A stretch of 59,676 nt of DNA from Methylococcales bacterium (GTDB lineage: Bacteria; Pseudomonadota; Gammaproteobacteria; Methylococcales; Methylomonadaceae), in contig QVQF01000100.1 in the NCBI GenBank assembly GCA_003584895.1, positions 1 through 59,676 of the forward strand, read 5' to 3'. Every line of letters begins with the position of its first letter. The first letter of the stretch is position 1. The notes under the pieces are model-generated. The model ran no database searches. It saw only the letters and a program-made list of their open reading frames with translations, and was not told where the DNA came from. Made by a program: the position numbers and the translations under genes. Positions 28,302-59,173 of this stretch are shown here, piece after piece.

Positions 28302-29138
28302 CTATGCGCTACTAGAGCTAGACGAGCTTGAGGATATGACCTCATCCGGACGAACTAAATTATAAACCACATCAGTCGCTGGCGCAAGACGAAGCTCGAT
28401 CGGATCCTGAATAATTGGGCACATCTTAAAGTCAATATAGCCAACACTACCAACAATATATCTCTGATCCGTCACAGCATTACACCACACATCGTTAGTA
28501 TTCATCTCAGGACAAATTATTGCCCTGGCTTTTCGGGCCCGATTATCCTCTACCCCTGCGTTCTCTGTGGTTACTTTCTTATGGTGCGGGGCCCCACCTT
28601 GGGACTGCCCAACATAGAACGTAATTGGGTCATAGTAGCCGCCCGTAATTCCGACCCCAAAACACTCAGAACAATTACTACCACGAGTGGCCTCTTGGGT
28701 ATCCCAGTCGCCGCAGGTCGTACACACCGGACCCCACTGTCTGCGCTTCCAGAGGAAACCACAGGTTCCGCCAAATTTAGTCATCCAGAGAGTCTCACGC
28801 TGAATGATTGCTCGGGATAACAGGTACTCCTGTTTTGACATCTGCCCTTGAGCAGAAGCAACCCGTGAGGAGTACACTACATTGTTGTTATCCACAAGAT
28901 CTACTCTGTATTGGATATCCCAATCCTTAGAGTATGTCCGCTGCTTTGTGTCAATCGCAAAATTGTTATTGAGCACTACTGCCGCCAGCTCGAAGTTCTG
29001 TGAAGCAGCAAAGTCTGTGACGTACACCTTGAAAGTGTAAGGCTGGGCGGCTTTGAAAAAAGGATTTAAATCCCAATGAATCAAAGTCCCGCCCTGGGTA
29101 CGGCTATAAATTTTAAGTGGCTGAAATACCTCCGCCAT
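28302..29138 (-). CDS. Neck/connector-region protein with zinc-ribbon motif and C-terminal poly-Ser, 278 aa
   Basis: A CTTCGDW ... NCSECFGVG pair of CxxC motifs (about residues 132-158) predicts a zinc ribbon; a similar Cys pattern occurs in structural proteins of other large myophages. The N-terminal part (LKIYSRTQGGTLIHWDLNPF) is a probable beta domain. The C-terminus is nine serines plus alanine, a poly-Ser tail like those of the fibre array. It lies between the 311-aa gene and the probable tail terminator, so a neck role is inferred. Confidence 0.65.
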   Translation of the reverse strand: MAEVFQPLKIYSRTQGGTLIHWDLNPFFKAAQPYTFKVYVTDFAASQNFELAAVVLNNNFAIDTKQRTYSKDWDIQYRVDLVDNNNVVYSSRVASAQGQMSKQEYLLSRAIIQRETLWMTKFGGTCGFLWKRRQWGPVCTTCGDWDTQEATRGSNCSECFGVGITGGYYDPITFYVGQSQGGAPHHKKVTTENAGVEDNRARKARAIICPEMNTNDVWCNAVTDQRYIVGSVGYIDFKMCPIIQDPIELRLAPATDVVYNLVRPDEVISSSSSSSSSA

Positions 29139-31819: not shown

Positions 31820-32752
31820 TTATGACGTGAAATCGACACGGGCTATTCCAGCCACGTTACCGATTGCAGATCCAATACTTTCGTATGCGAAGAACTCAAG
31901 CAAGTAGAACTTACGTTCAATTGCCATGGTCGTATCTTCGAGAACGAAGAACTTACCAAGGAACTTAGGTTCCGCGAACATGAAGAAGGTGTTATCCGGA
32001 ACAAGGTCGCGCTTGATCGTTACGAGCACGCGTGTGTTCAAGAATGTGCTCTCTGAGTAGCCCTTTAGAAGGATTTCTTCAGAGAGGTCACCACCGATTT
32101 CATCACGACCCCATTTTTGGAGATCTTTCACTGTGATGTTGTTCATCAACAGTGTTGAGGTTTCCAAGTGAGATGGCGTTGACGGCATAACCTTCAATGC
32201 TTCGTTAAATGTCTCGCGGGTGATACCACCGCTGATCGTCTTGTACTGCACTGTGTTTGTTTCCGTTACCGGAGTATTCACTGTGCCGAGCAAGCTATTG
32301 ACTGCGCGGATGGCTTTGCCGTCTTCTTCTGCCAACATGTCTTTGATCGCGTTGTCGCTCAAGACTTGGCGAATGTCCATGTCCCAGGTACGAAGTTCAT
32401 CAATGTCCTTCGTGAAGCGTGGGGTTGCGATACGGTCGAACATAACGCGGTAACGCGGGCCACGGATATACCGGTTCATCGGCAATGTTGCATAGGGGAT
32501 GCTGATAGCCGCTGGAGAACCCGGTTCCTTGTCCACGATCTTCACGTTCTTGTCGGTATCGACTTGACGATCCAACTCATCGTTGGTGATCGGTACAGGT
32601 GGAATGATTTTGCGCCAGAAGCCATCTTCACGCATTTTCACGCGTGTAAATTCATTGACGGCTTGTTGGGCGTTCTTTTGCATGCCATGATCGTCAGATG
32701 TGATCTGGTCATAGAATGCTTGGTTAACCGCTTTTGTGCTATATTCACTCAT
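31820..32752 (-). CDS. Major capsid protein (HK97-fold type), 310 aa
   Basis: The layout fits the capsid family of many large myophages: MKREDGFWRKI-type start (here MREDGFWRKIIPPVPITNDE), then LDRQVDTDKNVKIVDKEPGS, PYATLPMNRYIRGPRYRVMF (E-loop/spine side), a KDIDELRTWDMDIRQVLSDN helix and a C-terminal FVLEDTTMAIERKFYLLEFF strand. It follows the scaffold-like, 117-aa and decoration-like genes and is flanked by a hairpin, consistent with strong expression. Residual uncertainty is only about subfamily. Confidence 0.85.
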   Translation of the reverse strand: MSEYSTKAVNQAFYDQITSDDHGMQKNAQQAVNEFTRVKMREDGFWRKIIPPVPITNDELDRQVDTDKNVKIVDKEPGSPAAISIPYATLPMNRYIRGPRYRVMFDRIATPRFTKDIDELRTWDMDIRQVLSDNAIKDMLAEEDGKAIRAVNSLLGTVNTPVTETNTVQYKTISGGITRETFNEALKVMPSTPSHLETSTLLMNNITVKDLQKWGRDEIGGDLSEEILLKGYSESTFLNTRVLVTIKRDLVPDNTFFMFAEPKFLGKFFVLEDTTMAIERKFYLLEFFAYESIGSAIGNVAGIARVDFTS

Positions 32753-34952: not shown

Positions 34953-36449
34953 CTAAATAACATAGTTCTGCATAACAGCCATCTTTGCCAAAAAGTCATC
35001 ACCTGTAAGCGCACCGGAGTGGGTTAAAAATGCTAACTTATATCGGCTATAAAGATTGGCTAGATGCCCAGCAGCTGGGGACACATTTGCTGTGCCGCCT
35101 GCTACTCCTGCAGTCTTTTCAATACTCAGTTTACGAATGGCTGCCATTACTGCCCGTGAGTCCACAGCACTCTTTGTAATCGAGTGCGTAGGTGTCAACT
35201 CTGCAATCTTCTCTCGAGCTGATCTTGAGAGCAAAGATGTTCCTAGTTCAAAGTTCTTTAGGACTTCTGACTTACCGTTGAAGTCTTCTAGAGCTCTGGT
35301 GTAGATACCTGGCAATACTGACTCCGCCTCGTGCACAATACTTGCAACCTTATAATACTTATCGCCAAGAATAACCTTGGCAAACTCAGATACATTAAGA
35401 CAGATTCCGCTGGATGTCAACCCACCGAGCACGTCATCAACGCCGGCGCCGGCTGACTTCAACTGTGCAATATCCTCGTCTTCGATGTCCGGTCTCACTT
35501 CTTTATGGAAGGTTATTGTGAGTCTGTGATGCTTATCGTCTTTCTTGGATTTGCCTGATACTATTCCTTGTACTTCTTTTTCGATGTCTGAAAGCTTACT
35601 TAGACTAGCTAGCTTGGAACTAAGTTTCTCCAGTGAGAGATCTGCGTAGCCATCAAGAATCGGCGGATACAGCGTTTCATTCTCGGCGAGCTCTGCTCCG
35701 GAAACAACCTGGTTTGCGCTCGCTACCTTGAGCAGGCTAAATGCAATTCTATCCGCAGGGACTGTCACTTTGGAAATATCAAAGAATGTCATGTGATCGT
35801 TAATCGCGCCTACCTGATGTCCTGACTTTGTAATCTGCGTCATGTTACTGAGCAAGTGATCGCAGTACTCGGCGCGTTTGGCTGCCTGGTTACCACAAAT
35901 GCTGCAATAATCATACGGCACCTTACAGGCCATCGAAACAGCTAAATCTTTACCGCTGGCTATCTTCTCTAGATCCTCTTTCCAGTCAGCATCCGGAACC
36001 CGAAGGATAAGCTCTACCCGACTCATCGCTTCATTGTGCGCGCTCTTGACCACGTCACCACAGGACTTCTTTGGATCTTTATTGCAGTGATGTCGATAGA
36101 CCTTTGCAAACTTCTCGAATGTCCAGTGCCGGGTCTTATTTCCGTGCGCTATTTTAACATGGGATTTATTTTTATCCTTCGGTTCCGGAAAATGATAATC
36201 CTGGCCTTGCTTAAAGAAAATGTCGCCATTTCGATTGGCCCCGTAGTACTCACTGTCGCCCATTGCGATGACGTGCAGGAAAGAGTGACCCTTTTCAGGT
36301 TTAATATCTGCGGTCTTGAATACCCCAGCGGCGGCGCGTTTTGACATCCAGGCGCTATCCACCCCGCGACTGTGGACATCCACAATGCTGACCACGTTGT
36401 CTTCGTAGTTGTAGGACGCAGGGAGAATTACTTTAAGAAATGGTTCCAT
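34953..36449 (-). CDS. Probable prohead protease-like protein, 498 aa
   Basis: The N-terminal half resembles prohead maturation proteases of large myophages: HSFLHVIAMGDSEYYGANRN (about residues 55-74, an acidic/Asn-rich turn after the first strand), SMACKVPYDYCSICGNQA (172-189) and INDHMTFFDISKVTVPADRI. C182-x2-C185, C196 and H198 form a probable zinc knuckle. The C-terminal 230 residues are helical, ending KLAFLTHSGALTGDDFLAKM. It sits immediately before the scaffold-like and capsid genes, which is where maturation proteases lie. I could not identify the catalytic triad with certainty; H55/S56 and S172 are candidates. Confidence 0.55.
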   Translation of the reverse strand: MEPFLKVILPASYNYEDNVVSIVDVHSRGVDSAWMSKRAAAGVFKTADIKPEKGHSFLHVIAMGDSEYYGANRNGDIFFKQGQDYHFPEPKDKNKSHVKIAHGNKTRHWTFEKFAKVYRHHCNKDPKKSCGDVVKSAHNEAMSRVELILRVPDADWKEDLEKIASGKDLAVSMACKVPYDYCSICGNQAAKRAEYCDHLLSNMTQITKSGHQVGAINDHMTFFDISKVTVPADRIAFSLLKVASANQVVSGAELAENETLYPPILDGYADLSLEKLSSKLASLSKLSDIEKEVQGIVSGKSKKDDKHHRLTITFHKEVRPDIEDEDIAQLKSAGAGVDDVLGGLTSSGICLNVSEFAKVILGDKYYKVASIVHEAESVLPGIYTRALEDFNGKSEVLKNFELGTSLLSRSAREKIAELTPTHSITKSAVDSRAVMAAIRKLSIEKTAGVAGGTANVSPAAGHLANLYSRYKLAFLTHSGALTGDDFLAKMAVMQNYVI

Positions 36450-43572: not shown

Positions 43573-46557
43573 TTAATAAATTCCTGATGCATTTAAATCT
43601 TGACCAAAGTCCTTAGCGCGGGCAAGTCCTGGAATGAAGCTTGTTGAGTGTTCTTTTGAATCCCTAGATCTAACTGTTGCCTCAATGATTCCTTTCTCCA
43701 ATCCCCAACCGCCAAGACGAACCTGCCAGTCAGGGGACTGAGCCAAATTCTCAATATCTCGCACCATCTCCGGTTCAAAACTTGGGGCATCGGCGTGAGC
43801 CATGATCTCGTGTACTCCGTGCTTCTCTAAGTCTGCGGCAACCCGATGGTTGATCTTGGTTCCGATCGAATATTGCAGATCAGGACGCTCGAGATACATT
43901 CCAACAGCGGCCTTCGGTTTTTTGGCAACTGTTCCGTGGCGTGGTTTATAGTCACGCTCCATGTTTCCATACTCGATTAAATCATCAGGAAGCGCCCCTT
44001 CCGGCCCATCAGTGTCCGTAACCCTAACATGATTAATTAGACCGCGGGAGAGGATCTCAATGTTCCGCCGATTGGCTGGCATATCGTTCGCCCTAAACGC
44101 GTCCTTAAAGGCCTTAGTAAATACTAAGCGTCCATCACCGACTCCCCGGTACCTGACAATCTCTGCGGGATTTGGGATCCCCTCTGTCATAATATCCCCG
44201 GTCTCTACTCGGTCGCCGGCTTTAACCTTAATACCCGTATCCGGTGGGACATAGTGCTCAACTCCCCCGACGCTAATGGTGGAGCCACCTTGCGGCAGTG
44301 TGGTAACCCCCTGAACGATCCCGTCAACGGAAGCCAAGGTTGCCGCATTCTTAAACGAGCTTGGTATTTCAGTCATCTGCTTAATTAGGGCTACGCCGCC
44401 CATCCCGCCGCCATGACCTTTGCGGTCCTCTTTGCCTGTTGCTCGGCCGCCGGTGTGCTTAACATTCAGCATGCCTTGTGAGATTCTTTCAGCTAAAGCC
44501 TGGGCGGCGGCGACCCCAACATTGTCACCGATACTGGGGAGTGCCCCTGTCTCGCGAACACCTGTGCATAATGAGCACAACCCGCTCTTAGCCTGACAGG
44601 TAATTGGAGATCGAACCAGGATCTCCTGGTCACCAAGAGTTTTTCCAATTCGACCGTCCACGATCTGTCCGAGCTTGTATGGACCATAGTTACCCGCGAG
44701 TATGCTACCGACATTGTCTGGATCATTTGCCGGAACACTAATTCCACGAGCAGTACCGCAGTCCTTCTCCGTCACAACATTTCGGTGGGCAGCTTGAACT
44801 AGTTTCTTACCAAAGAAACCTGCTTCTTGTACGGCGAATTTAGTACTATTACCAGACACTAAACCGTTGGCTAGTAAAAACATATGATTGCTAGAGTCAA
44901 CCTCTATATCTCTTGTCTGTATATGCCCTACCAGCTCTTTACTAACCATCTTAAAACAATAACTGCTATTTTGTGCTTTAGACTTAACCCTAAACTTCTT
45001 AAGTTTATTAGCTTTGACACCAACTAGTGGGATTGCTAAATAAAACTTCTCTACAGCTACGCTGTGGGAGATAGTAAAACTATACAGGGAATGTGTGGCG
45101 TGTGCGTCTCTCTCTGTGCCCTGAGCAAATATATCGCTGCACCAGATACCAAAGCGTAACTCAAGCAGCCGCCTCAGCTGATCAATCATTTTTCTAGACG
45201 TTGATGCGAACGAAATGCTGCACCCCTTACCTCTCCTATATACTGAACCACCTGTAGAGAATAGTCCGGAAACTAATCTAGCCGCAGAGTTAATATTCCA
45301 CGAGTATACATCCTTAGGCAGCTCCTTATTATGAGCTAGCGTCTCGCCCATTACTTCCTTGAGATACTGCTTAACAGGACCATCCTTGCCGTCCTTCTCA
45401 CACAGCACATATCCATATTGTTTCTCAAAGGACTTATGCAGGGTAACGCCAAAACTACTAAGGTATCCTGCAACGTCACGTAACAGTTTTTTATCCGCAC
45501 AGGAAAAAATATATCTACCTCGTGTCGATGGAGCGAGGCAGTCATCTCCTAGCATTAAACCAACTAATAAAGCGAACTCTTCATTCTTACCTAACTTACT
45601 ACGTAGATCCTCTCCGTGGGCCGGTATGGCAACATACGTACTCTTACCAGTCTTCGGGTATAGTTTTCCCGCACCAAGCGGAATTAAAGAATATTTAGCG
45701 CCTGCATATGTATCGTTTTTACCTTTTAATCTCGCAAGCATCCTGTGCGAATCTGTGGCTACGAGGGTTACTAAGCGAGAAGACCAGTTAACCCTAAAAG
45801 AATATGAGTAGCAAAGTTGCTCCCCGCTATTGTATACAGCCCTAACTAATACGGAAGAAATACAACCCTGCGCATCAGAACCAAGTACCCTATCTCCCAC
45901 TACAATATCTTTAATTTTTTTACTGCTATAGTCTGACAATAATACCTCAGTATTCTCATCAAGACAAATTGTTCCCTTACGCCCACCATAGGAACCTGCC
46001 CAATATTCCGCAGGATCCAGTCCCTTGGAGTACGAACTTAAAATTGGCATTGGGATAACCCGATTACGATGATCTGTTACAAGCAAGTCGCCTGCAACCA
46101 AAGAGCGCATATCAGGACGAGAACCTCGGGAGCCCGATATGACTTGGGTGGCAAATGGATTCTTATCAAGAACACCCTGATTAAAGGTGGTATCCTCAAC
46201 ATCCTTTGTGCGCGCTCCCACAATATTCTTAATCATCTCACCTTGCTCTTCTGTTGTGAGATTCTTCTGCGCAAGAATAATGTTCACCCGTTTGCGAAGG
46301 TCATCAAGTTTCACCTTCAGCGCTGGTTGGGCTTCAAGACTCTTAATTGAAAGGCTGAAACCACTCGTATGTGCCGACTGATGGCCGGTTGTAAATAGCT
46401 TCTGAATAGTATCGCGAAATTCGTCGGGAGTTGTGTGCTGCTGCAATTGCTCCATCAAATCATTCATACCCTTCTTGTCGATGACACGGCTGTAATCTTG
46501 AAGTTCTTTTGGCAAAGTACTGTTAACAAGCACCTGCCCACAAGTTGTATGCAACAT
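43573..46557 (-). CDS. RNA polymerase beta' C-terminal half, with intein, 994 aa before splicing
   Basis: I start at ATG 46557, one base after the HNH stop; the longer frame to 46602 would overlap it. Residues 1-197 match beta' after the catalytic region (VLVNSTLPKELQ, then SGSRGSRPDMRSLVAG, matching the bacterial 'SGARGS...Q' segment) and end in the bridge helix at GGRKGTI. The intein occupies residues 198-570. STKFAVQEAGFFGKKLVQAA then resumes the bridge helix, followed by the second zinc-binding Cys set (EKDCGT, TCQAKSGLCSLCTG) and a trigger-loop-like GVAAAQALAERISQGMLNVK ... HTGG. The C-terminal part contains sandwich-barrel/clamp-like segments. It pairs with the beta-beta'N protein to form the catalytic core. 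The split lies at about the cyanobacterial rpoC1/rpoC2 boundary. Confidence 0.88.
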   Translation of the reverse strand: MLHTTCGQVLVNSTLPKELQDYSRVIDKKGMNDLMEQLQQHTTPDEFRDTIQKLFTTGHQSAHTSGFSLSIKSLEAQPALKVKLDDLRKRVNIILAQKNLTTEEQGEMIKNIVGARTKDVEDTTFNQGVLDKNPFATQVISGSRGSRPDMRSLVAGDLLVTDHRNRVIPMPILSSYSKGLDPAEYWAGSYGGRKGTICLDENTEVLLSDYSSKKIKDIVVGDRVLGSDAQGCISSVLVRAVYNSGEQLCYSYSFRVNWSSRLVTLVATDSHRMLARLKGKNDTYAGAKYSLIPLGAGKLYPKTGKSTYVAIPAHGEDLRSKLGKNEEFALLVGLMLGDDCLAPSTRGRYIFSCADKKLLRDVAGYLSSFGVTLHKSFEKQYGYVLCEKDGKDGPVKQYLKEVMGETLAHNKELPKDVYSWNINSAARLVSGLFSTGGSVYRRGKGCSISFASTSRKMIDQLRRLLELRFGIWCSDIFAQGTERDAHATHSLYSFTISHSVAVEKFYLAIPLVGVKANKLKKFRVKSKAQNSSYCFKMVSKELVGHIQTRDIEVDSSNHMFLLANGLVSGNSTKFAVQEAGFFGKKLVQAAHRNVVTEKDCGTARGISVPANDPDNVGSILAGNYGPYKLGQIVDGRIGKTLGDQEILVRSPITCQAKSGLCSLCTGVRETGALPSIGDNVGVAAAQALAERISQGMLNVKHTGGRATGKEDRKGHGGGMGGVALIKQMTEIPSSFKNAATLASVDGIVQGVTTLPQGGSTISVGGVEHYVPPDTGIKVKAGDRVETGDIMTEGIPNPAEIVRYRGVGDGRLVFTKAFKDAFRANDMPANRRNIEILSRGLINHVRVTDTDGPEGALPDDLIEYGNMERDYKPRHGTVAKKPKAAVGMYLERPDLQYSIGTKINHRVAADLEKHGVHEIMAHADAPSFEPEMVRDIENLAQSPDWQVRLGGWGLEKGIIEATVRSRDSKEHSTSFIPGLARAKDFGQDLNASGIY
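44848..45966 (-). mobile_element. Intein (373 aa) in the beta' bridge helix, endonuclease motifs degenerate
   Basis: The intein begins CLDENTEVLL after extein GGRKGTI, has a block-B-like VATDSHRML, block F HMFLLANG and ends LVSGN before Ser of the C-extein. Removing it restores same-length alignment with bacterial bridge helix RKG..xTxxxxxxxxG. The penultimate residue is Gly rather than the usual His. The two LAGLIDADG-like blocks read LLVGLMLGDDCL and LVSGLFSTGGSV; the second lacks the catalytic Asp, so the homing endonuclease is probably inactive. The sequence looks more AT-rich than the flanking exteins by eye. Confidence 0.88.
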
Positions 46558-46558
46558 A

Positions 46559-47194
46559 TTAAAACCTACTTGCGATGAGTTTGCAAATACGCACAAACTC
46601 ATTGTGGGAATAGTTTCGTTTCATTTGATTTGCAACTTTCGTTACCCATTGTAAATTGCTAATGCCGTCGCTACCACCGCTGTATTTAGGAACTATATGA
46701 TCTACCCACGCAGTTTGACCAAGAATTAATTTTTCTCCAGTATATGCGCAGCAGCCATTTTGCTGATCAAATAGTTCTCGCAACTCTTCCGCAGTAGCAT
46801 CATAACTATAGCTAGCAGACTTAAAAAAACAGTCAGAACATAAAGGGTAATCTACAGATAGTGATATTCTATACTTATCTTGATCTAATACACTAGGGCA
46901 TTTAGAGCACAGTCCGGCTGCTATCTTTCTACAAACTCTAAGATCTGCTCGTTTATTATTCTTTCCGAGATAAGAAGAGCACACAGAACCAACCCTATCT
47001 AACTTAGTTCCACAAGGACATAAACCTTGCGCTAAAAACTTTTCTCTTCTTTGCTTCTGTATCTTATTTCTAGTACTTCCACAAATACTACAATATATAG
47101 AAGCCGTAGCTGGTCTCTTATAGCAGTTGTAGCATAATCCTTTACTTTTGGCTAAAATTCTCTTGTCTCTAATTTGTTCTTTAGTACGCGGCAT
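46559..47194 (-). CDS. HNH endonuclease with Cys-rich N-terminus, 211 aa
   Basis: This is a free-standing homing-type endonuclease. The N-terminal 125 residues carry several Cys pairs (C21/C24, C35/C38, C59/C61, C96/C99, C119/C122) probably forming zinc fingers. The C-terminal region has the HNH core (VDHIVPKYSGG at 164-174, SNLQWVT at 179-185, and an Asn/Lys-rich end KVANQMKRN). It lies between the ligase-lysozyme gene and intein-containing beta'C, 1-2 nt from each. Such genes often spread beside conserved phage genes; this one may target an allele lacking the intein. Base composition looks more AT-rich than neighbours. Confidence 0.82.
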   Translation of the reverse strand: MPRTKEQIRDKRILAKSKGLCYNCYKRPATASIYCSICGSTRNKIQKQRREKFLAQGLCPCGTKLDRVGSVCSSYLGKNNKRADLRVCRKIAAGLCSKCPSVLDQDKYRISLSVDYPLCSDCFFKSASYSYDATAEELRELFDQQNGCCAYTGEKLILGQTAWVDHIVPKYSGGSDGISNLQWVTKVANQMKRNYSHNEFVRICKLIASRF

Positions 47195-47196
47195 AA

Positions 47197-50100
47197 TTAC
47201 TTACCTTTATTTTGCCGTACTACTGGCCAACCATTTGTTACAGTGCTCATGTCGTTTAGGTCGGCAGTCATTCTATTCTTTATACCTTCACCAAGTTCCG
47301 GATCCTGAATACCTTTAAAATCCATAAACTCTCTACCGCCTGCCTCCCATGTAGGTATACTCTTATTCCGCATCGCGGTGTTGAACAAAGCAACAGCTTT
47401 AGGACTCTTCCCCGCTACACCTTGATAGGTCGAGGATACAGCACCAGATAGAGCTCTAGCAGGAGCATTTGTCATTCCTGGCATTAGTTTAAAAGTGCTG
47501 TCAATAAAGGCTGGCAGCCTATGGTTTAAAACTGTTGTCGCCTCATTCGTGGTAATTGGCCGCTGGTTTCCGTAAATCTGATTTGCAGCAGGCTTACCAA
47601 TAGCTTTAGCAACTTGATTCGAATCTGTCTCGCCGTAACCTAAAGTTAGTTTGCCGTCACTGATATTCTTTGGCACAGGATTAAAACCCTCGCGACCTTT
47701 GATGGTTGACGAGATAGCGTTTGTGTTCACAGTAGGCTGTATACCGGCCTGCTTGCCCAATAGATATGCTGCGAAAGACTGTTCTTTCTCCATAGGTTCT
47801 GGGAGTGGAAACCTTCCTGTAGCAGACTCTTTACCCATTTGATAGGCAACAAAAGATACCTTCTCCAACTCTTTTTTCTCCGCGGCTCTAGCCTTATTCT
47901 TGCTGTGAAGATACTTAGCCAAAGCAGCAACACCGACACCACCGGTGACAAGGCCGGCGCCGAGGAGTGCGTTTCGTACGCCGCCGACTGCGGCAAGCAA
48001 GTCAGAATACATCTTATTATCAGGTACCATATCGTGCGAGGTCCCCCACTCTGCCCGCAATATTTTTGGCGCTAGTGTGGGATCCTTTAGTGCGTAATCC
48101 CTAAATGCAGCAACACTACCTGTAGGATTCTGTGAAATAAACTTATCCCGCAGTCCAGCGAGTGCACTATTAAAGCTAGCAGTGTCAGCATCGCAGCCCG
48201 ACCCTTCTCCAGGAAGTTTAGCTGGGTCTATTGGGGTGTGTGTAACAGCCTCCAAAGATTTAGCATTAACTGGATCTAAGTACCAAGAACCCTCACTTAT
48301 CTGCTTAGTATAAGCGTGGGGCCCGCTCTTCGCGTACTCTGTGTAGTGCTCTCTAGAGCTATCATTCCACGTAAATGGTTTTAGTGCGGGTATTTTGTCG
48401 GCTACAGGCCGAATGGCAGAACGGACTGCTCGCATATACTTCCAGCTAGGCACGCCAAGTACATTAAGTTTAGCTGCGTCATGTCCTTTAGAAACGTAAT
48501 CTAAAACAATCTGAGGATCTCCAGGGTTTAACCCAGCTCGCTCCCAATTCTTATAGGCATCACCAAACTCGCGAATCTCTCGATGAGATTCCGGATCAAG
48601 AAAAATATTGCCAGCTCCAACCATACCAGCACCACCGGCGACAAGCGCTAATCCTGGATACAGCAGCTGATGCCGCAACATCTGCTTCTTCTTATCTACG
48701 TCTGTGGTTGGCTGACTCGATATACTCTGCGGAATAGGAATATCTGGCAGTGAGATAGATAATGAACCTACGGCCGCCTGCTTACCCATTTGATAGGCTA
48801 TGTATGATCTTTTTTCCACTGGTGTGTAATCCTCGTTCCTTGCAATAAATGATGGTGCCCGATATGCCCCAGAACCGAACTGCTCTTGAGCAGCGATTCT
48901 AGCTTTCCTTCCAATCCACTGATCAGCATTCTCAAGCATATCAGCTCGATCCTCATCTGTAAAGCCTGATCCTACCTCTCCAACAATGTCGCCTTCTGGA
49001 TCAAGACTATACCCAAATCCACCAGCACCTTTTCCTTTATACTTACCCATACCCGGAAAGATCTCTCGAATATGCACATCACTTTCCGGAAATAACTTAA
49101 CTTTGGTTGGTACTCCTCCGGCCACTGGATGAGCAACGATCCCCTCACTTGTGCGCTGATTCTGTTTGCCCTTAATGTCTCCCCATAACTTTCGCTTGTC
49201 TTCTTCGGTGTACGCGTATTCTGGTTCATGAAATATGTCCTTAGGCAGGTGCTTCAAATATTGCTGAATGAGCTTACGACTCTCATCCAACGGCATGTTG
49301 GGAAACTTCTTTTCCCCATTCATAGTGTCAATTCCAAAGAGTGCCATTCGGAGCTTAATGCCCTCTTCTTGTTGTTTCTTTAAAGACTTTGCAACAGAAG
49401 AATTCAGCAGTCCGCCAAGCTCTGCGGTAGGAATAGCTTTTCCATTCCGCTCTCCCCAGGTCTCACCAATCAAGGTTGCATCCTGCAACTCTTTAGGGAG
49501 TTCAATCTTCTTACCTGACAGCCCAAGTCTTTGGGTATGAACAATTGGGGCCCCGGTCTCCGAGCGCTTGCGGTAACTTAAGGCATTAACCTTATCCCCA
49601 ACAATATCCAAGAGATTCATGGCACCATCGATCTTCTCACTCATCGCATAATCCTGCGTCATGAGTCGATCAATCTGATCTGCAGGAATAGTCTTATACT
49701 TTACCTTCTCGTGGCCTGGCGGCGTATTGGGGGTGGTATTAAACATCAACCAGGAGCCACCTTGAGTCTGTTTGGCTCTCGCCGTACCCTCTGCTGGGGT
49801 GGAGGACTTACGAACAAGAGTAAACTCTTCAGGATTCTTGCGATGGGTGACTACAAATTTAATTTTAGTGGGAGTGGCTTCGGTTACAAGGAGGGAACCC
49901 TTCTCGTGAGTTCTGACATCTCCGGCGCCATAGCCTGATTCTAGAGTTCCCTCAAACTCTGAGTAGGAACCACGATGCAGGGGCTGCTGAAAAAGCATGA
50001 TTGGCCTGTCCCCTGGTCCGGGCATATTTTTCTTGGTCGCAAAACTTAAAGTTCGATCCTCAGGCATCCCATGAATGCGGTAATCAAAGTGGCGACCAGC

Positions 50101-50226
50101 CCGGCGAGCATTGTGCTCCTGAACAACAAAAGGAACAGACTGATTCAGGGGAAGATGCTGAGTGTTACCAAACCGGAAAGGATCGGGTAAACCTTCAGCG
50201 TAATCGTCCTGAATGTCTTCTGGCAT
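47197..50226 (-). CDS. LigD-type phosphoesterase - ATP-dependent DNA ligase - GH24 lysozyme fusion, 1009 aa
   Basis: Residues 1-150 are a LigD-type 3'-phosphoesterase domain (EHNARRAGRHFDYRI, with H38, H46, D48 and R50; YSEFEGTLESGYGAGDV at 88-104). Residues 170-465 are an ATP-dependent DNA ligase with the nucleophile motif SEKIDGA (K198), IGETWG (E255), SEGIV (E361), TKVK (K375, K377) and an OB-fold ending in AYRAPSFIARNED. Two Gly-rich hydrophobic segments (about 521-543 and 743-773) follow. Residues about 838-1000 resemble a GH24 phage lysozyme (GREGF with E846, TLGYGE, then TWEAGGREFMDF). Three copies of an AYQxGKQA-type motif (474-486, 791-803, 817-827) lie at domain boundaries. A ligase fused to a muramidase suggests a virion protein acting at entry or a polyprotein cut at these motifs; that is inference. 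Confidence 0.85.
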   Translation of the reverse strand: MPEDIQDDYAEGLPDPFRFGNTQHLPLNQSVPFVVQEHNARRAGRHFDYRIHGMPEDRTLSFATKKNMPGPGDRPIMLFQQPLHRGSYSEFEGTLESGYGAGDVRTHEKGSLLVTEATPTKIKFVVTHRKNPEEFTLVRKSSTPAEGTARAKQTQGGSWLMFNTTPNTPPGHEKVKYKTIPADQIDRLMTQDYAMSEKIDGAMNLLDIVGDKVNALSYRKRSETGAPIVHTQRLGLSGKKIELPKELQDATLIGETWGERNGKAIPTAELGGLLNSSVAKSLKKQQEEGIKLRMALFGIDTMNGEKKFPNMPLDESRKLIQQYLKHLPKDIFHEPEYAYTEEDKRKLWGDIKGKQNQRTSEGIVAHPVAGGVPTKVKLFPESDVHIREIFPGMGKYKGKGAGGFGYSLDPEGDIVGEVGSGFTDEDRADMLENADQWIGRKARIAAQEQFGSGAYRAPSFIARNEDYTPVEKRSYIAYQMGKQAAVGSLSISLPDIPIPQSISSQPTTDVDKKKQMLRHQLLYPGLALVAGGAGMVGAGNIFLDPESHREIREFGDAYKNWERAGLNPGDPQIVLDYVSKGHDAAKLNVLGVPSWKYMRAVRSAIRPVADKIPALKPFTWNDSSREHYTEYAKSGPHAYTKQISEGSWYLDPVNAKSLEAVTHTPIDPAKLPGEGSGCDADTASFNSALAGLRDKFISQNPTGSVAAFRDYALKDPTLAPKILRAEWGTSHDMVPDNKMYSDLLAAVGGVRNALLGAGLVTGGVGVAALAKYLHSKNKARAAEKKELEKVSFVAYQMGKESATGRFPLPEPMEKEQSFAAYLLGKQAGIQPTVNTNAISSTIKGREGFNPVPKNISDGKLTLGYGETDSNQVAKAIGKPAANQIYGNQRPITTNEATTVLNHRLPAFIDSTFKLMPGMTNAPARALSGAVSSTYQGVAGKSPKAVALFNTAMRNKSIPTWEAGGREFMDFKGIQDPELGEGIKNRMTADLNDMSTVTNGWPVVRQNKGK

Positions 50227-54095: not shown

Positions 54096-54740
54096 CTACG
54101 TTGTTGGTTTAAAAAATCCTTTGGGTGCTTTTCCGGATAAGGCTGGAAGAGTATTTGTTCCACCACTGCCCACAGCCGTCCCAACTGTCTTTACTGCAGG
54201 ATCGATTCGATTCTGGGTGTTTTGAATTGCGACATTTTGCTGATGTATATTGTAGTGATCCTTAGCAAGTCCTGCACCTTCTCTTACATCGTGCCATACC
54301 GGCTCTGCTGTGCCTGCTGCCGCTCCCCAGACTGCGCCGGGTACTCCGCCTGTCGAAAATCCGGCTACTGCCCCAGAAGCCATTGGCAGCGCTTCTCGGG
54401 TCACTTGCTTTACGTATCCGTTCGGCATCTGGTCTGTAAGCTTATTGCCAAGATAGTCGGCTACTAGTCCACCCCCAAATCCTTTACCCATCCGAGTAAG
54501 TGTCGCTGGGTTTGTGAAGCCGCCGGTGCTCGGATTCTTCGCAAGATGTTGCACATAGCCTTCCGCCCTTTGAACTGTGTCTGCCATAAGGCGCTTGGCC
54601 GCTGTGCCTCTAGCTTGCGCTAGACCGGTGTCTGCGATCCACCGTCCTGCTGTGCCTGCTGCGTCGCCGGCACTATTCGCACTAGCCTGCTGCATCTCAG
54701 TCGCAGCTTTAACCCCTAAATTAAATGCTAGTTTATTCAT
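54096..54740 (-). CDS. Glycine-rich protein with N-terminal LAFNLGVKAA motif, 214 aa
   Basis: It begins MNKLAFNLGVKAATEMQQAS, a short amphipathic motif related to those in the ligase-lysozyme and head proteins. The middle (GGLVADYLGNKL, SGAVAGFSTGGVPGAVWGAA) is Gly/Ala-rich and could span or perturb membranes. The ATG overlaps the polymerase stop as ATGA. No known family is recognised. An internal virion or ejected protein is a reasonable inference. Confidence 0.62.
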   Translation of the reverse strand: MNKLAFNLGVKAATEMQQASANSAGDAAGTAGRWIADTGLAQARGTAAKRLMADTVQRAEGYVQHLAKNPSTGGFTNPATLTRMGKGFGGGLVADYLGNKLTDQMPNGYVKQVTREALPMASGAVAGFSTGGVPGAVWGAAAGTAEPVWHDVREGAGLAKDHYNIHQQNVAIQNTQNRIDPAVKTVGTAVGSGGTNTLPALSGKAPKGFFKPTT

Positions 54741-57700
54741 TTCTCTTCCTTGATTACAACAGGTGCGTCTACGGTTAGCTCCCCTCTATGGAATGCTTCA
54801 ATCATTTCTTTTCTTGTATTGTACACCCGCGGTGGTTTGTTATTGTCTTTTTCGTGAGAGGCGAGATAGAGTCCTGCCAGAAATTCTTGTCTTGGCGCCC
54901 AGTTGACTTTGAAGTCAGCCGGCGATCGTAGGTTACGGCTTGGTAGCAGCTTCTCCTTTGCTTCCTTAATTGCCTTCTCAGATACTACCACATGGAAGTT
55001 CATAGCATCACCATCAAAATCCGCATTGAACCCAGGGGTAATCGCCGGGCTTAGCTGAAGCGTCTTGTCATTAGTGAGTACCGGATAGAAGGCCATCAAA
55101 CTGTATCGGTGAAGGGCCGGAGCGCGAGTCGCCATAACTGGCCGATCTTTCATTTCTTCCTGCAGCATTTCCAAGGCTTGCTTGGAGTGGTCCGCGACCA
55201 GCTTCACAGCTTGGGCCTTCGCGGTGGGTGAGTCACCCATCGCCCGGGCGAGCCGACGGGCCACAAACGGGCTGTAGAGCTGCCAGGCCTGTTCGACGGG
55301 GATTCCGATATGGTCCATGTCAAGTTGCGGGTTCGGGGTAATGGCGGCCCTTCCAGATAGCTCTGTGGAGGCCCCTAGCAGCTTTTGCTGGAACAGTCCG
55401 AGCTTGGGAGATGTCCCGAACACGTCGGCCAGTAGTCCGCGAACCATTCGGGTTTTACGTTCTGGCTTTACCGGATCCCCAAGCCCGACAACTGCCTTCA
55501 GTGAATTGTAAGTATTCAGACGCGCTGCGCCGACCGGCTCGCCTTGGAGAAGTCCACTAACTTCCTTGAGATTATTATTCGCCTCAAGCAGGTCCATATA
55601 AAGCTCGTTCACACCGGCGACCATATCGAAATTTTCTGTGGCAGTAATGGGTCGGAAGATTGGCGGGAGCACCGGAACCTTGCTAATCATTAGTTCCTTT
55701 GGGGTCACTTTCTGCTTCGCGAGGCCGCTGAGGATCTTTAACTTCTTACAAGCGTCGTCCCTCCGGGATGCAGACTCTGCTTCCTTAAAGATTTGCTTTT
55801 GGGTTTCAATCTCTTGTGGAACACTGATTCGGCCAAGCGCCTCCTGCATCGCCTGCGGGCCAGTCCCAATTCCAGGAATATCCTGGGTCCCAGATAAGAC
55901 GCCTTCAAAACTCTTCTGGGTCAGTCCAAGCAGGCGCCGAATTGAGTCTTCCATTACTGGCTGGGGAAGCGGCTCGTGCAGCGTAATGTGGGACCAGTTG
56001 TGCCCCCCGTGCCCGCCGGTGATCCCACGATCAAATAATCCCCCTTCCACTGGATCTAGCGACTTCTCGCCAAAAGCTTCTCTGCCAAACTGAGCGAGCC
56101 ACTTTACTGTGGAAGGTTTTGTGACCTCACCGTGCGACATGTGGGTAGCTTCTTTATCCGTCATTGCGGATAGGTTTAGCAGGTCCCCGTGTTTATTAAC
56201 ATTGATACCTGAGGCCTTCAGCATATAGAGAAACTTTTTATAGGCCAAAGGAATATCTGGAGTGGGCGGCGGGAAGCCCTGAATCATCGCCCGCCAGTAG
56301 GCCTCATTCCGCTGCCCACGAATTGTTTTAATGTCGCGAATGTTTTCAACAGCCCCATGGGAGATTAGCGCTGACATCTCACCAAACCCAACCCGCTTTG
56401 GATTCTCCTCATCAAAGCCACCCGCGGGCTCACCCTCAGAGGTATAGGAGCCGAGTGCCCGCCCCGAGCCTTTCGACTCAGCGGTATGGTGCAGTTTCAT
56501 ATAAAACCGATCCCCCACCAGCACATTCGGGATCACGCGATTGCTATCCCCCGGATCTACAATCGCTTCCGTATCTTTAACATTATGGGCCTGCATTTCT
56601 TTCTTAACAAAATCAATAAAGCTCTCATCCGAGAATGAAGGAACCCGATAGCCCCGACCTCGTTGGCGGGCAATCTTACCGAGTACAGCCTCGAACATCT
56701 GTGCCGGATTAACCCGGGAAATTACACCCAGTGGATTTTGTAGCACATCCAGTGGCTGGCCATCTTGAGTGTGGGGCATTTGATCATCTGGAACCACTGC
56801 TCCAATAACACCTTTATCACCATAGCGCCCCGACATCTTATCGCCAACTTCGGCAGGAGCGTAGCCTTTGACCGCGACCTTAATTCCATCATCGTCAGAG
56901 AACACATCTGTAATCTGTCCTGGAAAGTGGTGCTTCCACTCAACTGCGCTATCAATCCAGGTTGTCCCAGATGCGCGATGTAGTTGACCCGCACCTTTCT
57001 GAGCACGGCGCTCAACAGAGAGAATGATTGGATCCCCATAGTTCAATGTAGTCCCAGGTTTGACAACCCCGTTGTTGTCCACCTTATCCAGCTGGTCCTT
57101 AGTGTAGACTGATGGGTAAATTGAGAGGTACTTGTTCCGAGACACAGCCATATTATCACCAACGTCTGCTTTCTCGGTGTACATGTGCTCGCTGGTTAGC
57201 TTCTTCGCTGCTGAGGCTGAGATAACATAGGCGTCTTCGTAGTTCTCTCCCTTGTAGGGCAGGTATCCAACACGTAGGTTTGTCCCGACAGCCAGCGTTC
57301 CGGCTTTATCAGTAAAGTTAGAGTGCGCGAGTAGACCACCGGCCCGCACCACGTCACCCGGTTTAACCGTCGGAGTGTTTGTGAGCAGTGTTTTGCGATT
57401 AAAGGGGAAATTGTGGTAGAGCTCGTAGGATCGATCTGTGCCATCTTGTTGTTTTACAGTGACCGAACCTTTATCTACTTTCTGAACAATTCCAGGCTGC
57501 TCTGATCTAACAACAGCGGACAGCCTACCTAGTTGGTTTTCAAAACTGTCAGTACCATCTGGTGTAAGTGCCTGCACAAGAGGTGCTTCCGGATTCTGTA
57601 GGGCCAAAGCTTGATTGGCCATCTTTGCGCCCATCAGTAACCGACCAGCTTTGATCGCGCTAATCATCGGGACAATGTTTGAGCCTATGGTAAACATATT

Positions 57701-59173
57701 ACTAGCCGAAGGCACGATGTAGTCAACCTTGCTTGGATCCGCAAACTGGAGTTTTCCTCCGGCCATTACTTTTACCTGAGCCCGACCTTCTTTTTTAGCC
57801 CGCTCAATCTCTCCTGGAAATGCAATGACTTTATCCGAGACATCTTCGGCTTTAACATAGTCCTGTTTCTTGGTCCTTGCGTTAAACATTTGGGTGTAGA
57901 TGTTTCCATCACTACCCTTCTTAACCCCATGCGCAAAGCGGGAGTCAACCCCTACAGAACCAGACTCCGGACTCCGCACAGGATCGATAAATCCAAAGTA
58001 CGACGGCTGTACGTTTCTTGACTCTACAGGAACTGCTTCTTCAGAAATACCACCTTCACCGATTCGAACCACCCGTAGGTTTTGGTCAACCGGATCCACG
58101 GTATTAATTTCTTCAAGTGGCTGGGCCAATCCAGATTTATAGAACACTGAGTTAATGTGCGGGTCAAGGGCCCCAAATTTAATTCCTGAAAGATTGCCTC
58201 TTAGGGTTGCTTTCCATAGAGCAGCTGAGCCGACGCGACCTGAGTCTTTGAGAATTCTTTCTTTAAAAAAGTCTTCCGGTGACATGATCGCTTGATAGCT
58301 CAAAGAATCACGATCATCTGTGTCTTCTGTGCCCTTACCGATATTGATTAGTTTCTGAGAACTCCGAAGCATAACCTCTGGGGTTACATTTCCAAATGCC
58401 TTACCCAGAGTACGTTGCGTAGATTTGGGGTCCAGAGTCATACCGTGAAGTAATTCAGCAAAATGCTTGTTCACCTCTTCACCTTCACCCTTTTTAGCCC
58501 GGTAGCCTGCTAGACGTTCGTAGGCTTTACGCACAGTCCGCGGGTCATCACTTTCGAGGGTGTTAGCTGTAGTAATCTCTGGACCCCAAGCTTCACGCAT
58601 CTGAGTATCGTTGACTCCGATTGCTTTTAGGATTGGGTAGAGTTTTAGGTCCGCCTGACCGATGTGCATTCGAAACACACCTGTCTTAGGCTCCATGAAT
58701 ATTCGGAAGGAAGGGCCACCTTTAAGAACATTGAAGTGGGATTCAAGTTCTCCGCTTTCTTTACGGCGGGAGAAGACACCGTTTTTAAGTCGCATTTGAT
58801 TCGCGATCGTGTACTCATTTCCATGAATAATAAATGTTCCCCGTTGGGTCATAAAGGGAACATGGGCGAGCACTGTCTTCTTTTGGTCAACAACCTTGTT
58901 CTCAGCCTTATCGAACAGCTTCCAGGTGCCAACCAATCTTCGATGGAGATTCCGTCTCTGGAGAATCGCTTTCTTTTGCTCCTCTAGAGAGAATGTCTCA
59001 GGCCCTTCGTATCGAGGATTATCGATGCTTAAACGAAAGCGATCATTCTCGATTGGATAGGCTGTATTGATTGCCCCAATGGTACCGTCATAGATGTTTT
59101 TTCTGGTTGTATCATAATCCAGAAAATCCCTAAGCTCAGTACCGTCAGGTAGGGTGTTCGGGCTACTACTCAT
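54737..59173 (-). CDS. RNA polymerase beta fused to beta' N-terminal half, 1478 aa
   Basis: Residues 1-950 match bacterial beta: FMTQRGTFIIHGNEYTIANQ (about 107-126), RLLMGAKMANQA (511-522), AGTLAVGTNLRVGYLPYKGE (624-643, the 'LALGrN...pw.Gyn' motif), VGDKMSGRYGDKGVIGAVVP (776-795) and FGEMSALISHGA (930-941). Residues about 1010-1478 match beta' N-terminus: GEVTKPSTVKW, GLFDRGITGG, LMISKVPVLPPIFRPI (1161-1176), GASTELSGRAAI, TRAPALHRYSLMAFYPVL, then NADFDGDA with catalytic D1385/D1387/D1389. The N-terminal zinc ribbon of beta' seems absent: no Cys cluster exists where it should be (GLFDRGITGGHGGHNWSHIT). The gene ends at GLYLAS-type sequence, and the rest of beta' is encoded at 43573-46557. 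It has the conserved active site, so an active core is likely. Confidence 0.92.
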   Translation of the reverse strand: MSSSPNTLPDGTELRDFLDYDTTRKNIYDGTIGAINTAYPIENDRFRLSIDNPRYEGPETFSLEEQKKAILQRRNLHRRLVGTWKLFDKAENKVVDQKKTVLAHVPFMTQRGTFIIHGNEYTIANQMRLKNGVFSRRKESGELESHFNVLKGGPSFRIFMEPKTGVFRMHIGQADLKLYPILKAIGVNDTQMREAWGPEITTANTLESDDPRTVRKAYERLAGYRAKKGEGEEVNKHFAELLHGMTLDPKSTQRTLGKAFGNVTPEVMLRSSQKLINIGKGTEDTDDRDSLSYQAIMSPEDFFKERILKDSGRVGSAALWKATLRGNLSGIKFGALDPHINSVFYKSGLAQPLEEINTVDPVDQNLRVVRIGEGGISEEAVPVESRNVQPSYFGFIDPVRSPESGSVGVDSRFAHGVKKGSDGNIYTQMFNARTKKQDYVKAEDVSDKVIAFPGEIERAKKEGRAQVKVMAGGKLQFADPSKVDYIVPSASNMFTIGSNIVPMISAIKAGRLLMGAKMANQALALQNPEAPLVQALTPDGTDSFENQLGRLSAVVRSEQPGIVQKVDKGSVTVKQQDGTDRSYELYHNFPFNRKTLLTNTPTVKPGDVVRAGGLLAHSNFTDKAGTLAVGTNLRVGYLPYKGENYEDAYVISASAAKKLTSEHMYTEKADVGDNMAVSRNKYLSIYPSVYTKDQLDKVDNNGVVKPGTTLNYGDPIILSVERRAQKGAGQLHRASGTTWIDSAVEWKHHFPGQITDVFSDDDGIKVAVKGYAPAEVGDKMSGRYGDKGVIGAVVPDDQMPHTQDGQPLDVLQNPLGVISRVNPAQMFEAVLGKIARQRGRGYRVPSFSDESFIDFVKKEMQAHNVKDTEAIVDPGDSNRVIPNVLVGDRFYMKLHHTAESKGSGRALGSYTSEGEPAGGFDEENPKRVGFGEMSALISHGAVENIRDIKTIRGQRNEAYWRAMIQGFPPPTPDIPLAYKKFLYMLKASGINVNKHGDLLNLSAMTDKEATHMSHGEVTKPSTVKWLAQFGREAFGEKSLDPVEGGLFDRGITGGHGGHNWSHITLHEPLPQPVMEDSIRRLLGLTQKSFEGVLSGTQDIPGIGTGPQAMQEALGRISVPQEIETQKQIFKEAESASRRDDACKKLKILSGLAKQKVTPKELMISKVPVLPPIFRPITATENFDMVAGVNELYMDLLEANNNLKEVSGLLQGEPVGAARLNTYNSLKAVVGLGDPVKPERKTRMVRGLLADVFGTSPKLGLFQQKLLGASTELSGRAAITPNPQLDMDHIGIPVEQAWQLYSPFVARRLARAMGDSPTAKAQAVKLVADHSKQALEMLQEEMKDRPVMATRAPALHRYSLMAFYPVLTNDKTLQLSPAITPGFNADFDGDAMNFHVVVSEKAIKEAKEKLLPSRNLRSPADFKVNWAPRQEFLAGLYLASHEKDNNKPPRVYNTRKEMIEAFHRGELTVDAPVVIKEEK

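Follow-up and report, generated by a model that had tools for sequence, protein, structure and literature searches.

LigD, the NHEJ ligase D, has the domain order PE-LIG-POL in Pseudomonas, with a 3′-phosphoesterase (PE) ahead of the ligase. Polyvalent proteins, known from phages and conjugative elements, have been described with lysozyme, 2H, pyrophosphatase, GNAT, and SNF2 domains, and a zincin-type peptidase for processing is often, but not universally, part of the chain (PMC5512222). In that text, the three mentions of "ligase" refer to RNA ligases and "LigD" is absent (PMC5512222). The SPN3US head is packed with proteins that are thought to be ejected, several of which are cut by the prohead protease after A-x-E (PMC10052503). 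The isolate closest to the phage sequence studied here is Salmonella phage Arash, in whose virions Gp206, Gp216, and Gp217 were detected with 128, 40, and 38 unique peptides, and a separate DNA ligase, Gp177, with just 2 (PMC10585845). Here, we analyzed a 59,676-nucleotide stretch of a Methylococcales contig (QVQF01000100.1; the whole stretch is called the window), which encodes a protein that unites unrelated enzymatic domains in one phage polypeptide, firmly assigned for the PE and the ligase and weakly for a GH24-like end (Table 1).

The first-pass annotation had described this protein as a DNA ligase fused to a phage lysozyme, with a LigD-type phosphoesterase in front. Its coordinates were correct, the gene lying on the minus strand; both hydrophobic segments are present, and H38, H46, D48, K198, E255, E361, K375/K377, and E846 were all found where it had placed them. 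It is extremely unlikely that an assembly or sequencing error fused two adjacent genes: the contig does come from a fragmented assembly and the lysozyme-like end is unique to this protein, but the reading frame is open over all 1,009 codons, joints 1 and 2 are near copies in the same frame, and relatives carry comparably long fusions. Codon-position GC is similar throughout the gene, with first-position GC lower at residues 831 to 1009 (0.49 versus 0.57 to 0.60).

Table 1. Features of the fusion protein and of related genes in the window.
Feature	Coordinates	Strand	Residues	Basis or remark
Fusion ORF: PE, DNA ligase, hydrophobic/middle region, GH24-like end	47197..50226	minus	1009 aa	1009 codons
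LigD-type 3′-phosphoesterase (PE) domain	49810..50121	minus	36-139	H38, H46, D48, R50, H84, Y88; Pfam LigD_N, PDB 3p4h, conservation
K-x-S motif VRKSS	49801..49815	minus	138-142	Last PE strand into PE/ligase linker
ATP-dependent DNA ligase, nucleotidyltransferase + OB	48829..49650	minus	193-466	K198, E255, E361, K375, K377; PHROG 114, AlphaFold, Foldseek
Joint 1, tandem motif VEKRSYIAYQMGKQA	48775..48819	minus	470-484	Directly after ligase
Hydrophobic stretch 1	48598..48666	minus	521-543	
Hydrophobic stretch 2	47908..47973	minus	752-773	
Joint 2, tandem motif LEKVSFVAYQMGKES	47824..47868	minus	787-801	Near copy of joint 1
Joint 3, motif LGKQA	47746..47760	minus	823-827	Ahead of GH24-like part
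GH24-like region	47425..47694	minus	845-934 (matched)	E846 and T861 kept, I855 at D/C position; Pfam sub-threshold, hhalign
Fused RNA polymerase beta + N-terminal beta′	54737..59173	minus		Homolog of Arash virion Gp206, 32% identity
RNA polymerase beta′ C-terminal half with inserted LAGLIDADG/Hint intein	43573..46602	minus		Homolog of Arash virion Gp216
Major capsid protein (MCP)	31820..32752	minus		Motif MQKNA at residue 24; Arash homology
Candidate head maturation protease, Arash gp222 family	34953..36449	minus		H121 and S172 invariant in 16/16 rows; many K-x-A/S motifs

The PE-ligase assignment is firm, and the PE and complete ligase motif set with OB fold read from the sequence at first pass were borne out by Pfam, PHROG, AlphaFold, and Foldseek. 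The PE domain matched Pfam LigD_N marginally above its cut-off (E = 1.3e-7, 32.1 bits against 31.1) and PDB 3p4h at E = 2.8e-10, and residues 193 to 466 matched PHROG 114, "ATP-dependent DNA ligase" (E = 4.5e-15); in Pfam, the ligase core gave sub-threshold OB matches only. AlphaFold pLDDT exceeded 90 across residues 21 to 460, except 141 to 160, and the best Foldseek matches were DNA ligases. In an alignment of 34 sequences including the fusion protein, K198, D200, E361, and K377 are invariant, and H38, H46, D48, R50, H84, Y88, E255, and K375 are kept at ≥90%. As in bacterial LigD, the PE stands directly before an ATP-dependent nucleotidyltransferase/OB ligase with its catalytic residues kept. 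Unlike bacterial LigD, however, the protein is phage encoded, has variable extra domains, and shows no polymerase domain in Pfam and PHROG scans of the whole chain. Ku (PF02735) was matched in none of 49 related phage records, a set that includes many fragments; the Bacillus subtilis control genome gave a match, and the window covers only part of its own phage. Classical end joining thus appears unlikely. An NAD+ ligase is also present in 3 of the 49 records, and 4 of 25 have a second ATP-type ligase, so there the module cannot simply be equated with the replicative ligase.

The lysozyme-like end is far less secure. Its Pfam GH24 match stays below the curated cut-off of 22.3 bits both in the whole protein (E = 0.016, 15.9 bits) and when the end is scanned alone (E = 0.0014, 19.4 bits). 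Alignment by hhalign against a profile of 10 GH24 proteins scored 37 across just 30 columns; none of 30 shuffles exceeded 21.3, and no other window protein exceeded 21.8. An AlphaFold model from the one sequence, without relatives, reached a pLDDT of 38. The catalytic residues of GH24 are E, D/C, and T; here E846 and T861 are kept, and the D/C expected nine residues after E846 is I855. Relatives of this end numbered 0 in 50 related records (a search without positive control, for which an empty result says little), none in viral contigs (single-sequence search), and none significant among the proteins of the fetched loci (best E, 0.39). The label "phage lysozyme" was therefore too strong. N4-type virion RNA polymerases appeared among the phage matches to this end at E values of 0.3 or worse, which are not significant. 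Found solely in this protein, the end may help wall passage or may be degenerate. Taken together, the sub-threshold match, the missing residue, and the lack of a relative make ligase plus lysozyme one pairing among many partners.

When the whole protein was searched against the phage collection, a threshold of E 1e-5 gave no match and E 10 only weak ligase and PE stretches; no close relative was found in viral contigs (single-sequence search), and none in 100 related genomes apart from its own. Across 398 genomes of the phylum, its own genome and four short matches to the PE part, in open frames of 829 to 921 residues, were all that was recovered. For the orphan middle region, which lies between the two hydrophobic stretches, three weak matches (E 0.002 to 0.01, one with an internal stop), one match among the fetched proteins (E 0.004), and PHROG 36668 (function unknown; E = 0.012) were not used.

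The PE-ligase core recurs across Arash-related phages as a module whose partners change. It was found in 42 IMG/VR loci, 38 after removal of apparent duplicates, and 18 of these 38 carry large extra parts on it; the partners identified by Pfam include SNF2 helicase, RNA polymerase beta′, 2H esterase, pyrophosphatase, GNAT, Nudix, and histidine phosphatase. In two loci (L090 and L129), the fused helicases share 36 to 37% identity with Arash Gp217, and in L103, the module is fused to an RNA polymerase beta′ half homologous to Arash Gp216. As in the virion-RNA polymerase lineage of Arash and Vibrio phage D69, the window encodes beta and N-terminal beta′ in one chain and C-terminal beta′ in another, and its capsid, sheath, and other late genes are homologous. 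It differs from Arash in that the Arash ligase is separate (Gp177), and the virion data for this lineage come from Arash only. Taking proteins with 5 or more unique peptides as strong virion proteins and same-strand genes within flanks of up to 8 kb as neighbors, a homolog of a strong Arash virion protein lies beside the module in 25 of 38 loci. For other ligases of related records, the same holds in 1 of 8 regions (Fisher p = 0.014). The enrichment persists (20 of 32, p = 0.017) after dropping six loci in which the module had originally been encountered next to the polymerase.

These associations bear on whether the module is an ordinary cytoplasmic repair or replication ligase that drifted into fusions, its late-gene location being incidental and nothing being packaged. 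Most records searched contain no other ligase, and 13 of the 38 loci lack a same-strand strong-virion homolog (9 of these 13 lack any Arash homolog), as such a ligase would allow. However, fusion to homologs of two abundant virion proteins, the virion-gene neighborhood, and a head-linked motif at the joints make this reading improbable.

That motif, hydrophobic-x-K-x-A/S, occurs in six copies in the fusion protein, all at or between domain edges. A strict form built on the fusion protein was seen 0 times against 1.15 expected in the 1,756 proteins of the fetched loci, and the looser form used here is the product of a second look after the strict one failed. With the motif first noticed in the same data and the homologs not independent, 24 copies were observed at module edges against 4.2 expected, and K ranked first of 15 center residues tried. 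By edge, it was present in 14 of 23 N-edge and 6 of 13 C-edge segments; with the module start corrected, the N-edge count was 14 of 22 segments (15 copies against 1.9 expected), and the module interior was depleted (7 against 28.5). Among window genes above 30 kb, the head side, 59 copies were found against 23.9 expected, with K again first among 15 center residues, whereas tail-side genes had 17 against 14.8 and K was not first. In Arash, strong virion proteins carry 99 copies against 61.8 expected, compared with 16 against 21.3 in undetected proteins. The motif also lies at residues 21 to 30 of the MCP in 21 of 23 clusters; one of the two retrieval patterns contained the motif, and it was present in 15 of 17 clusters retrieved with the other pattern alone.

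The candidate maturation protease is encoded 11 kb from the fusion gene. PHROG 18299 was matched in 5 of 5 members of its family (best E = 8.4e-10), with the window's own candidate reaching only E = 0.039 against the protease PHROG, and a PHROG labeled DNA methyltransferase matched 4 of 5 members (best E, 4.2e-8).

The leader of T4 internal proteins acts as a capsid-targeting tag, and the motif could likewise be a tag and not a cutting site, with the fusion packed whole and acting as a single chain. This would suit relatives without a large N-terminal part (e.g., L088, L093, L112, and L113), which have the motif in short N-terminal leaders, and its spread across the window genes above 30 kb. 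Nevertheless, we consider it unlikely, since the motif is depleted within the folded module, sits at both edges, and is repeated at joints, its MCP position is one where cleavage during maturation would come as no surprise, and a protease candidate is present. Given how short and common the motif is, many of its copies must escape cutting or act as a tag. Very unlikely, in turn, is a tail- or baseplate-associated entry protein with the ligase as passenger: lysozyme domains are known in tail proteins (PMC5512222) and the hydrophobic stretches would fit, but the motif is enriched on the head side and not the tail side, the catalytic D/C is missing, and the 50 related records, searched without positive control, held no relative of the lysozyme-like end.

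On balance, we slightly favor the fusion being a "polyvalent" multi-enzyme precursor of a contractile-tailed, Arash-related phage that would be packaged in the head, cut by a protease, and repair the incoming DNA. The suggestions at first pass of a virion protein and of a polyprotein are compatible with each other and both gain indirect support from the partners homologous to Arash virion RNA polymerase beta′ and helicase, the virion-gene neighbors, and the joint motif, from which we infer packaging and cutting. In such a scheme, the fusion would be packaged alongside the virion RNA polymerase in the head, and the candidate maturation protease would cut it at hydrophobic-x-K-x-[AS] joints into three products: the PE-ligase (about residues 1 to 482), the middle region, and the GH24-like end. 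Once ejected, the PE could trim 3′-phosphate or 3′-ribonucleotide blocks and the ligase could seal nicks in the incoming genome, allowing immediate transcription and replication. That a phage lineage with a virion RNA polymerase also has a capsid enzyme for DNA end healing and sealing, made in polyproteins with interchangeable partners and released by the head protease at these joints, so that damage in the incoming DNA is mended ahead of all phage gene expression, is a more tentative proposal, to which we give not quite an even chance. If true, phages would bring DNA repair into the cell from the capsid along with transcription, with a bearing on the survival of incoming genomes under nicking defenses, and the joint motif would be a handle for spotting packaged cargo across a mostly uncultured phage group.

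The fusion resembles polyvalent proteins in joining unrelated enzymatic domains in a single chain, but differs in its head-linked K-x-A/S joints and in having no zincin-type peptidase or other fused metallopeptidase in a Pfam scan. Among the matches listed for literature on polyvalent-protein DNA ligases, ejected ligases, and phage LigD, no title or abstract opening described a PE-ligase phage module. The site proposed here (hydrophobic-x-K-x-A/S) also differs from that of SPN3US, where cleavage follows A-x-E (PMC10052503). As a separate observation, the tail of the relative L088 contains the sequence HEAGH together with a sub-threshold match to Zn_peptidase_2.

The PE-ligase protein is encoded by one uninterrupted frame that combines a LigD-type 3'-phosphoesterase (PE) with a DNA ligase, as the first-pass annotation had claimed; Pfam, PHROG, AlphaFold, Foldseek, and a match of aa 36-139 to the solved 3'-phosphoesterase 3p4h (E = 2.8e-10) all agree on this. 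The AlphaFold model, built with 33 homologues, has a pLDDT above 90 across aa 21-460 save for 141-160, and its Foldseek matches are DNA ligases (archaeal, T4, LigD, and others). The annotated catalytic residues are conserved among the aligned homologues, and both hydrophobic segments are present. The protein is nevertheless not a full LigD, as a polymerase domain was not found in it.

Features of the PE-ligase protein, its relatives, and the surrounding window
Feature	Location	Strand	Evidence or remark
PE-ligase gene	47197-50226	minus	single ORF, 1009 codons
LigD_N (PE)	aa 36-139		Pfam E = 1.3e-7, barely above Pfam cut-off
ATP-dependent DNA ligase	aa 193-466		PHROG 114, E = 4.5e-15
Hydrophobic stretches	aa 521-543, 752-773		
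Joint motif copies	aa 138, 470, 480, 787, 797, 823		
SNF2/helicase partner	L090, L129		above Pfam cut-off
RNAP beta' partner	L103		above Pfam cut-off
2H esterase partner	L097, L101, L102		above Pfam cut-off
Inorganic pyrophosphatase partner	L097, L106		above Pfam cut-off
GNAT partner	L106		above Pfam cut-off
Nudix partner	L111		above Pfam cut-off
Histidine phosphatase partner	L105		above Pfam cut-off
HAD/PNKP-like; LNS2-like; AAA/zeta-like; zinc peptidase	L107; L099; L102; L088		below Pfam cut-off
beta' C-terminal half fused directly to module	L103:5208-9515		single 1436-aa frame
beta + N-terminal beta' chain	54737-59173		1478 aa; NADFDGD active-site motif near its end (residue ~1383); remaining beta' a separate gene
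beta' C-terminal (beta'C) gene	43573-46602		in-frame Hint/LAGLIDADG intein
HNH endonuclease gene	46559-47194		overlaps start of beta'C gene
Candidate head maturation protease gene	34953-36449	minus	
Major capsid protein gene	31820-32752	minus	
Poly-serine runs	1-621, 28302-29138		N-terminus of one protein, C-terminus of the other

The annotation had also called the C-terminal end a phage lysozyme (a GH24-like domain, E846), and here the sequence comparison bears out a likeness but does not establish a GH24 identity. Scanned alone, the end reached 19.4 bits in Pfam against a cut-off of 22.3, while hhalign against a GH24 profile (10 sequences drawn from 19 fetched loci) scored 37 over just 30 aligned columns, compared with maxima of 21.3 in 30 shuffles and 21.8 among other window proteins. 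The catalytic E and T of GH24 align with E846 and T861, but I855 occupies the D/C position, with a D two residues further on. Structure prediction of the end gave no fold, and a search of 50 related records, run without a positive control and so of little weight when empty, recovered no relatives of it.

A PE-ligase profile search found 42 viral loci, four of which appear to repeat others and were dropped. By ORF length, at least 100 residues precede the PE-ligase part (the module) in 14 of the remaining 38, and at least 150 follow it in six; two loci have both, giving 18 with large extra parts. Fourteen others encode proteins of 444-562 aa, barely larger than the module, and six are fragments or not resolved. 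The partners change between phages: among 19 family proteins scanned with Pfam (E ≤ 0.01; 17 of them fused), nine have partners above the cut-off, and no other named family was found in L089, L096, L100, L114, L117, L123, or L124. The fusions at L117:7053-11903 and L129:4890-9272 contain stretches that, judged by eye, we take to be like YiiX/NlpC-type peptidases; Pfam named no peptidase family in either. Locus L088 shares a contig with L166, the most similar capsid protein among module-bearing relatives (75%), and gene order there is that of the window (PE-ligase, beta'C, then homologues of 41118 and 39771). Where the window protein has its GH24-like end, L088 has HEAGH and a sub-threshold Zn_peptidase_2 match: the tails are exchanged. 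Bacterial genome contigs yielded only two relatives, in metagenome-assembled Flavobacteriales and Blastopirellula.

Within the window protein, joint 1 (VEKRSYIAYQMGKQA, aa 470-484) and joint 2 (LEKVSFVAYQMGKES, aa 787-801) are near copies and joint 3 (LGKQA, aa 823-827) is a half copy, their general form being hydrophobic-x-K-x-[AS]. All six copies of this motif fall at domain edges or between them; the one at aa 138 begins on the last PE strand of the AlphaFold model. With nine of the 42 loci set aside (duplicates, fragments, and unresolved cases), the motif occurs in 14/23 N-side edge segments of relatives (15 matches versus 2.1 expected from shuffles) and, with the window protein counted, in 6/13 C-side edges (9 versus 2.3), and is depleted in the module interior (8 versus 29.8). 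The edge was first set at the BLAST match start, which falls inside the module in a few loci, chiefly L129; with a corrected start, the N side gave 14/22 (15 versus 1.9) and the interior 7 versus 28.5 in 32 proteins. When 15 different centre residues were compared, K came out top at module edges (5.65-fold) and also, with the PE-ligase gene excluded, in the window genes above 30 kb (2.47-fold); in those below 30 kb it was fifth (1.14-fold).

The window is contig C2 (bases 1-59676) in a 2.6-Mb assembly of 235 contigs, and every gene that could be named is a phage gene (tail sheath, major head protein, PhoH, fused RNA polymerase beta + beta'N, and beta'C). The polymerase-nearest isolates, Salmonella phage Arash and Vibrio phages D69, D181, and D148, share ~32% identity. 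In BLAST, 12 window proteins matched 12 of the 147 compared Arash proteins (out of 252, mostly the longer ones) in 13 rows, and the virion table of PMC10585845 gives each of these 12 Arash proteins at least seven unique peptides. The virion proteins detected most in the same table include the RNA polymerase subunits Gp206 and Gp216 and the helicase Gp217; its authors consider carry-over of abundant enzymes possible. Because the table is uneven, and some proteins in it reach 100% coverage from just two unique peptides, we called a virion protein strong at five or more unique peptides. On this basis, K took first place among the strong Arash virion proteins (1.6-fold) and 13th among the undetected ones (0.75-fold). 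The module is fused to Gp217 homologues in L090 (36%) and L129 (37%) and to a Gp216 homologue in L103. By the same peptide data, a homologue of a strong virion protein lies on the same strand, in flanks of up to 8 kb, in 25/38 PE-ligase loci, compared with 1/8 regions of other ligases (five ATP-type and three NAD+-type, with one of the eight truncated at a contig end; Fisher p = 0.014); nine of the 38 have no Arash homologue whatever nearby. Removing the six loci where the module was first encountered beside the polymerase left 20/32 versus 1/8 (p = 0.017).

In the capsid proteins (76 loci gathered, one open-ended and dropped), the motif occurs at residue 21-30 in 21 of 23 clusters, and the remaining two retain K-x-A. 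The first 50 residues hold 22 matches (19.1 per 1000) and the rest 15 (2.6 per 1000); shuffling those 50 gave the motif in 4.6/23 on average (maximum 9). One search pattern of the capsid fetch included the motif; in the 17 clusters carrying just the motif-free pattern, it is found in 15. Two more distant capsid proteins outside the cluster set differ, L124 having the motif (residue 14) and L121 lacking the hydrophobic form. K-x-A is retained near residue 25 in the window capsid protein and relatives L166-L241, and this may be a maturation site.

The product of 34953-36449, 37% identical to Arash gp222, probably belongs to a head maturation protease family. PHROG 18299 ('head maturation protease') matched 5/5 scanned members (best E = 8.4e-10; the window's own only 0.039), and H121 and S172 are invariant in 16 aligned rows, a set that includes Arash twice and several truncated rows. 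All five members also match two PHROGs whose function is unknown, and four match one labelled DNA methyltransferase (best 4.2e-8); Pfam and PDB scans gave nothing useful. This otherwise unannotated head gene family carries many K-x-A/S motifs.

What the sequences show directly is the architecture, its conservation, the exchange of partners around the module, and the motif statistics; beyond that, we propose that the PE-ligase protein would be packaged in the virion as a precursor and cut at its joints, and that its products would be ejected into the cell, where the PE-ligase may repair the incoming DNA. LigD-type PE domains take off 3'-phosphates and 3'-ribonucleotides. Ku was found in none of 49 related records, many of them fragments, which makes nick repair likelier than end joining. 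An NAD+ ligase accompanies the module in 3/49 records and a second ATP-type ligase in 4/25 (22 of the 25 from PE-ligase loci; the search overlooked the known module in the L113 record), and since separate ligases coexist in some phages, the module would have its own job there; in phages without one, it could also serve replication. For the proposed processing, the nearest model is the cleavage of SPN3US head proteins after A-x-E (PMC10052503). As a kind, the protein fits the 'polyvalent proteins' of PMC5512222, whose text names lysozyme, 2H, pyrophosphatase, GNAT, and SNF2 domains, uses 'ligase' three times, for RNA ligases, and does not contain 'LigD'. The beta'C intein and the HNH gene form two adjacent homing-type elements.
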